Of a stretch of 64,000 nucleotides of DNA, positions 37,664-38,051 are shown piece after piece. The translations under genes were made by a program, and so were the position numbers. This DNA comes from Adineta ricciae (taxonomy: Eukaryota > Rotifera > Eurotatoria > Adinetida > Adinetidae), in contig CAJNOJ010000010.1 of the NCBI GenBank assembly GCA_905250025.1, forward strand, positions 434,001 to 498,000. Reading direction: 5' to 3'. Below the pieces are notes generated by a model. The model made no database searches and was not told where the DNA came from. It was given only the letters and a program-made list of their open reading frames with translations. How positions within the stretch are numbered: the stretch's first letter is position 1; each line of letters starts with the position of its first letter.

Positions 37664-38051
37664 TTATCGTCTGCGACCAAAACGTAAGAAACCTGTGTCA
37701 CGGCGAGATAGATGATCCAACCTATTGCATAAAACATGCGACGATCTCGGATGGCAGGGTAAGATGAAGTAATTGTCCACTTCATTTGTGTCAGCCTGCT
37801 GTTCATTTGGAAAATCGAGCAATCGTTCTTCGTCATTTGTTAGTCCTTCATATTTACGGAATAAGAGGTCGATTGGCTCATTATTTGAATTGATCCGATA
37901 AGCTAAAGAGAAGAAATAATTACATGCTGCTATTTGAATTATTCAAATCAGTAATCCACTTCGAATATTGATTGAAATTGAAGAACTTACCATGCAAACT
38001 TGCAAGAAGATGTAGGATTACCAAAAGAAGTAAGAAAGTGTTTGAAAACAT
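37664..38051 (-). CDS. [9 protein letters not shown]-type neuropeptide precursor (myosuppressin-like)
   Basis: Two exons, 37991-38051 and 37664-37902, joined by an 88-nt GT-AG intron, encode 99 residues. The first exon is a classic signal peptide (MFSNTFLLLLVILHLLASLH, then A). The body is acidic and contains one Cys pair (PCHPRSSHVLC). The very end reads LSRR, then DTGFLRFG, then RRR and stop. Dibasic cleavage at RR, trimming of RRR and amidation from the Gly would release a single peptide, [12 protein letters not shown]. A single FLRFamide copy at the extreme C-terminus before a basic run is the architecture of arthropod myosuppressin precursors, which are cardio- and gut-inhibitory hormones. 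Orthology is inference; a general [9 protein letters not shown]-related peptide is the alternative. Confidence 0.85.

Follow-up and report, generated by a model that had tools for sequence, protein, structure and literature searches.

The arthropod myosuppressins, as described in the parts of PMC6502818 drawn on here, are decapeptides with a consensus sequence of which the last six residues are termed the active core, and their precursors consist of a signal peptide, a propeptide of ~70-100 amino acids and one near-C-terminal FLRFamide between basic sites. In spiralians, the orthologues of myosuppressin are said to be the myomodulins, whose receptors belong to the same group; the ancestral forms were probably F- or Wamides (PMC8557429, in part). 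Myomodulins differ in that each precursor carries several LRL/LRMamides and not FLRFamide (PMC6425005, in part). Heptapeptides ending in FLRFamide, with an Asp near the N-terminus (GDPFLRFa, SDPFLRFa, NDPFLRFa and pQDPFLRFa), are known from molluscs; in pulmonates, an alternatively spliced form of the FMRFamide transcript encodes them in many copies (PMC4208409, in part). The sections of PMC6425005 used here count Rotifera among the phyla that have FMRFamide and RYamide precursors, and they report FCAP from three species of Rotaria. According to the sections of PMC8557429 used here, a study that included three Rotaria species found very few precursors and an in-depth gnathiferan survey is the next frontier; gnathiferan neuropeptides are thinly sampled, and the bdelloid data are thin.

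In this study, we describe a gene of the bdelloid rotifer Adineta ricciae, located within a window of 64,000 nucleotides (the whole stretch of DNA that was analysed, on contig C10 of a 130 Mb assembly of 1033 contigs), which is very probably a genuine and conserved FLRFamide neuropeptide precursor, apparently undescribed so far. Judging from sequence comparison, we put the probability that the gene is real and that its product is the amidated peptide DTGFLRF-NH2 at about 0.85. A preliminary description of the locus had noted no described peptide with this sequence, and DTGFLRF was absent from the main texts of the literature searched; no description of the precursor was found in these main texts, and the supplementary rotifer lists of PMC6425005, a source consulted in part, may include it. 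The gene is classed here as an FLRFamide neuropeptide precursor, and not as a proven myosuppressin.

The preliminary description had joined two short exons into a 99-residue secretory precursor, and the reading frames together with an in-silico join across an 88-nt GT-AG intron on the minus strand bore out its coordinates, splice sites and product. Exon 1 (37991-38051, minus strand, as are all features of the gene) contains the start codon and most of the signal peptide, MFSNTFLLLLVILHLLASLH, plus the first base of the next codon, and eight homologue models, e.g. A. vaga P0002 and Rotaria sordida P0003, have the same join of exon 1 to exon 2. The intron (37903-37990, phase 1) reads GTAAGT...TTTAG and is placed by the sequence itself and, at the protein level, by what homologue rows appear to translate. 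Exon 2 (37664-37902) is an open frame for the propeptide, the cleavage sites, the peptide and the stop codon. The N-terminus is strongly hydrophobic on the Kyte-Doolittle scale (best 11-residue mean 3.17, residues 6-16, against at most 0.28 for segments starting at residue 26 or later), in agreement with the clean signal peptide claimed earlier; with hydropathy as the sole measure, the product is a short secreted precursor with a predicted signal peptide. The precursor matches no family in Pfam.

The C-terminal end of the precursor is SRR-DTGFLRFG-RRR-stop, an N-terminally extended FLRF-Gly flanked by basic sites. It comprises a predicted dibasic cleavage site at Arg87-Arg88 (37700-37705), the predicted mature heptapeptide DTGFLRF at residues 89-95 (37679-37699), and Gly96, the predicted amide donor, followed by the terminal Arg97-99 (37667-37678). 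Upstream of these, the propeptide contains a Cys-X8-Cys pair, Cys70-Cys79 (CHPRSSHVLC, 37727-37756), which may form a disulfide loop and possibly serves granule sorting or represents a second peptide. A candidate poly(A) signal, AATAAA, lies 43 nt past the stop codon (37615-37620), and a pyrimidine tract with an AG ending 20 nt upstream of the ATG (38072-38084) is a possible splice or trans-splice acceptor. A presumed spliced-leader sequence had no match in the assembly, and either the sequence used or the assembly may be wrong.

Homologues were collected by a first search, which gave 6 relatives, and by a profile search of 3605 candidates, which brought the total to 33 at E up to 10. The search depends on shared words, so that distant relatives without the tail would escape it. 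The preliminary description had proposed looking for other rotifer precursors ending in FLRFG and basic residues, and all nine named matches among the 33 related proteins are bdelloid (Adineta, Rotaria): A. ricciae (a partial record), A. vaga, A. steineri (two), Rotaria sordida, R. socialis (two), Rotaria sp. Silwood1 and Silwood2. The annotated 99-aa proteins of A. vaga and Rotaria sordida align over their full length with 69% and 57% identity, respectively. The partial A. ricciae record, P0001, has 92% identity to the precursor, which suggests another copy or an allele outside the examined assembly.

Conservation of the C-terminal FLRFG in related bdelloids had been set beforehand as the check on which the gene should stand or fall, and the tail is kept throughout. 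In the alignment of 34 rows (the 33 homologues and the window precursor), RR-DTxFLRF-G-R is present in 34/34, with the dibasic RR before the peptide and the G-R behind it invariant, and DTGFLRF itself in 31/34; the remaining three rows read DT[HKQ]FLRF, with H, K and Q once each in place of the third residue. Mean column entropy is 0.09 bits over the last 13 residues against 1.57-1.96 bits elsewhere, a contrast that is somewhat inflated since the divergent rows were found partly through the tail segment itself. Two rows, P0032 and P0033, are weak (E 0.53 and 3.1) and rest mainly on the common tail. By eye, P0028, P0031, P0032 and P0033 resemble a second type in which the Cys pair is altered or missing, and three of these four have a different third peptide residue. 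The two records of A. steineri, P0013 and P0031, both contain DTGFLRF and, by eye, have little else in common beyond AYRI and the tail.

The homologue rows also bear on the intron. Among the 26 rows with letters before exon 2, eight are fused as if spliced (the full-length models of A. vaga P0002, Rotaria sordida P0003 and Rotaria sp. Silwood1 P0007, and those of five further rows); the other 18 seem to run on through the intron. L, V or I precedes [AG]-Y in 16 of these 18, as expected from a TAG acceptor, P0004 and P0025 being the ones that differ, and G-[KR] stands at the donor position in the four intron-reading rows that also cover exon 1. These protein rows speak indirectly for an old and genuine intron. 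Two of the fused models, P0008 and P0009, lie on jgi contigs that are 947 and 975 bases long; since other jgi entries read through the intron, these two are suggested to be spliced cDNA.

The motif alone proves little. The coding word for FLRFG plus two basic residues occurs once in the 64-kb window and was absent from 3.84 Mb of simulated order-2 Markov sequence; a looser DNA pattern gave 46 matches genome-wide and 22 in a backward control, and it is this count that deprives the motif of weight. The locus is taken to be more than chance because it is conserved in related bdelloids, and not because of the motif by itself. Three queries, namely the precursor protein, a 5.5-kb piece of DNA and the DNA of the gene alone, were used to look for a second locus in the same assembly, and the gene itself was matched on C10 only. 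Two parts of the window (34037-39824 and 46726-47568) are collinear with C29:385.9-398.7 kb, a duplicated (ohnologous) region in inverted order, with 32-73% protein identity across seven open frames and flanking genes kept on both sides. In the C29 interval 395,486-396,547 the neuropeptide gene was not found by tblastn with four precursors, which returned one 9-residue match of P0013 (E 1.4), and inspection by eye of the six frames of C29 395,400-396,650 revealed no FLRFG; a duplicate can therefore be lost. A neighbour gene in the window, at 35836-36735, has a Lebercilin (ciliary protein) domain (E 2e-22).

Sixteen of the 46 pattern matches lie in two gene pairs of the same genome, C1/C27 and C33/C50, whose open frames contain 8 and 5 FLRFG units, respectively. 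In the first pair (C1:1682.6-1682.9 kb and C27:340.6-340.9 kb; L033, L046) the units mostly follow a single Arg, and the last one is EFLRFG-stop, with no basic residue behind the Gly. Several units of the second pair (C33:527.3-527.4 kb and C50:331.2-331.4 kb; L051, L055) are 13 residues apart, and its end is RFLRFG-stop. The spliced models of all four genes have a phase-1 intron at the signal-peptide boundary, like the window gene. FLRFamide is therefore not diagnostic of myosuppressin here, because other FLRFamide genes with the same phase-1 intron are present in the genome.

One possible origin is that the window gene is paralogous to the bdelloid multi-copy FLRFamide precursors but came down to a single peptide, and that its resemblance to the myosuppressin layout arose by convergence; we regard this as a serious possibility that falls short of an even chance. 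The likeness lies in the FLRFG-R units and in the intron, both of which are common to all three FLRFamide gene types of the genome. Phase-1 introns near the ends of signal peptides are common in secreted proteins, and the intron position counts less for paralogy because of this. The multi-copy precursors differ from the window precursor in their repeated units, in the mostly single Arg before the peptides where the window gene has RR, and in a propeptide without the Cys pair (the latter two compared by eye); moreover, the multi-copy genes were absent from the matches (E up to 0.001) obtained when the genome was searched with the precursor protein.

The preliminary description had recognised in the single C-terminal FLRFamide, cut at basic sites, the layout of arthropod myosuppressins. 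The layout holds: the propeptide ends in one peptide and has the length given above for arthropods, as compared with the parts of PMC6502818 used. The orthology read into it does not follow, as the arthropod decapeptide consensus with its active core is not matched by DTGFLRF and FLRFamide is common to the multi-copy genes. The peptide has seven residues where the arthropod peptides have ten; it retains only the D and the FLRF of the arthropod consensus and lacks the V-X-H-X part. The salmon louse myosuppressin gene has four coding exons (PMC6502818, in part), against one intron in the coding sequence here. It is the mismatch with the peptide consensus that keeps the gene from being classed as a myosuppressin. 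Likewise, a myomodulin precursor has several LRL/LRMamide copies and the window precursor one FLRFamide only, and the pulmonate heptapeptides, for all their likeness in length and ending, come in many copies and not, as here, in one copy from a gene of its own.

That the gene is nevertheless a true rotifer orthologue of arthropod myosuppressin and spiralian myomodulin, with the ancestral single C-terminal FLRFamide layout and a shortened N-terminus, is a tentative reading with the odds against it. It would account for a precursor of ~100 aa that, as in arthropods, carries its one FLRFamide at the C-terminal end and flanked by basic sites, and it is consistent with the relationship between myomodulins and myosuppressin and with the probable F- or Wamide ancestral forms (PMC8557429, in part). 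A narrow MLR[LMI]G pattern for myomodulin-like repeats gave 16 matches in the genome, all on different contigs, and 14 in the control, and thus revealed no myomodulin-like repeat gene. The presence of dmsr-type receptors in the genome keeps the myosuppressin idea alive without proving it. Besides the consensus and the multi-copy genes, it has against it that no arthropod precursor is among the nine named of the 33 profile matches (E up to 10, 3605 candidates), in a comparison to which short precursors give little signal. Slightly more doubtful is the fuller history in which a single-copy FLRFamide myosuppressin with dmsr-type receptors as its targets was already present in the protostome ancestor, the trochozoan myomodulins lost the FLRFamide end and the single-copy layout, and a gnathiferan myosuppressin kept both, bdelloids still using DTGFLRF-NH2 on the C24/C18 receptors. 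The gene bears on which state is older, the FLRFamide myosuppressin or the LRL/LRMamide myomodulin.

It is improbable that the gene encodes a bdelloid-specific secreted protein of which the Cys-loop propeptide is the active part and the FLRFamide tail is secondary: Cys70 and Cys79 are kept in 31/32 and 28/31 of the rows with a letter at the position, but the loop, at 1.57 bits, varies far more than the tail, at 0.09 bits, and P0031 and P0033 keep the tail without the Cys pair. A chance open frame or an annotation artefact is highly improbable. Chance alone yields the DNA word for FLRFG and basic residues some tens of times in a genome (the backward control had 22), but several named species conserve the full length of the protein together with the exon join, which speaks strongly against this reading.

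The predicted processing of the FLRFamide precursor begins with the signal peptide (residues 1-21, cut after Ala21), which would direct it into the secretory pathway. A convertase of the furin/PC type would then cleave after Arg87-Arg88 and at the terminal RRR, a carboxypeptidase would remove the basic residues, and PHM/PAM would convert Gly96 to the amide, giving one DTGFLRF-NH2 per precursor. Candidate enzymes are encoded in the genome. The best solved-structure matches of a PHM-like segment on C94 are to peptidyl-glycine alpha-amidating monooxygenase (E 1.1e-12), and a furin-type P-domain segment common to C9 and C15 matches furin (E 8.7e-18); the strongest Cu2-monooxygenase match of the genome, on C18, looks like a dopamine/tyramine monooxygenase. 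The peptide might be released from neurons or neurosecretory cells and might modulate muscle, gut or cilia, two steps that are put forward with less assurance, and it probably works like an FLRFamide or myosuppressin hormone. Rotifers are reported to show [9 protein letters not shown]-like immunoreactivity (e.g. PMC13161344, in part), some of which may stem from the predicted product of this gene.

The target would be a rhodopsin-type GPCR of the W/Y/Famide group, most likely one of the dmsr/myosuppressin type; dmsr-type receptors are encoded on C24, C35, C18, C102 and C185, with the first three (or C102/C185) as the candidates. That DTGFLRF-NH2 acts on a receptor of this type comes, on sequence grounds, close to an even chance, though on the lower side of it, and the multi-copy FLRFG-unit genes are a source of competing ligands for these receptors. 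A short conserved single-peptide gene together with candidate receptors in one genome makes a clean ligand-receptor test possible.

Three of the receptors were assembled (C24 and C18 by script, C102 partly by hand), and those on C35 and C185 were read by eye. The C24 receptor is 100% identical over 472 aa to the A. ricciae record P0035. A receptor fragment had no match among solved structures. When 7998 candidates were scored with a profile of the three assembled receptors, 179 proteins had E up to 1e-10, of which the best 120 are listed. Among the matches listed, the named non-rotifer relatives bear automatic names, among them dmsr-1, sex peptide receptor and adhesion G protein-coupled receptor L2, with molluscan and insect proteins among those named dmsr-1 or sex peptide receptor-like; the name 'myosuppressin receptor' does not occur in the best 120 of the 179. 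Judging from their motifs, the insect rows of the set may be myosuppressin receptors.

The receptor tree was built from 22 rows, namely 17 hand-picked matches, the three own receptors and two outgroups, with no characterised myosuppressin receptor among them. The bdelloid C24/C18 group joins a receptor of the rotifer Proales with 94/95 support, narrowly missing the threshold that the tool sets for a firm branch. This tree does not resolve how the phyla branch, it carries a long-branch warning for the C102 type, the flatworm and the outgroups, and its bearing on orthology to myosuppressin receptors is suggestive only. The receptors at C102:236.7 kb and C185:38.2 kb (L009, L012) form a second, long-branched bdelloid group of the dmsr type, whose sole close row in the tree is from Rotaria sordida.
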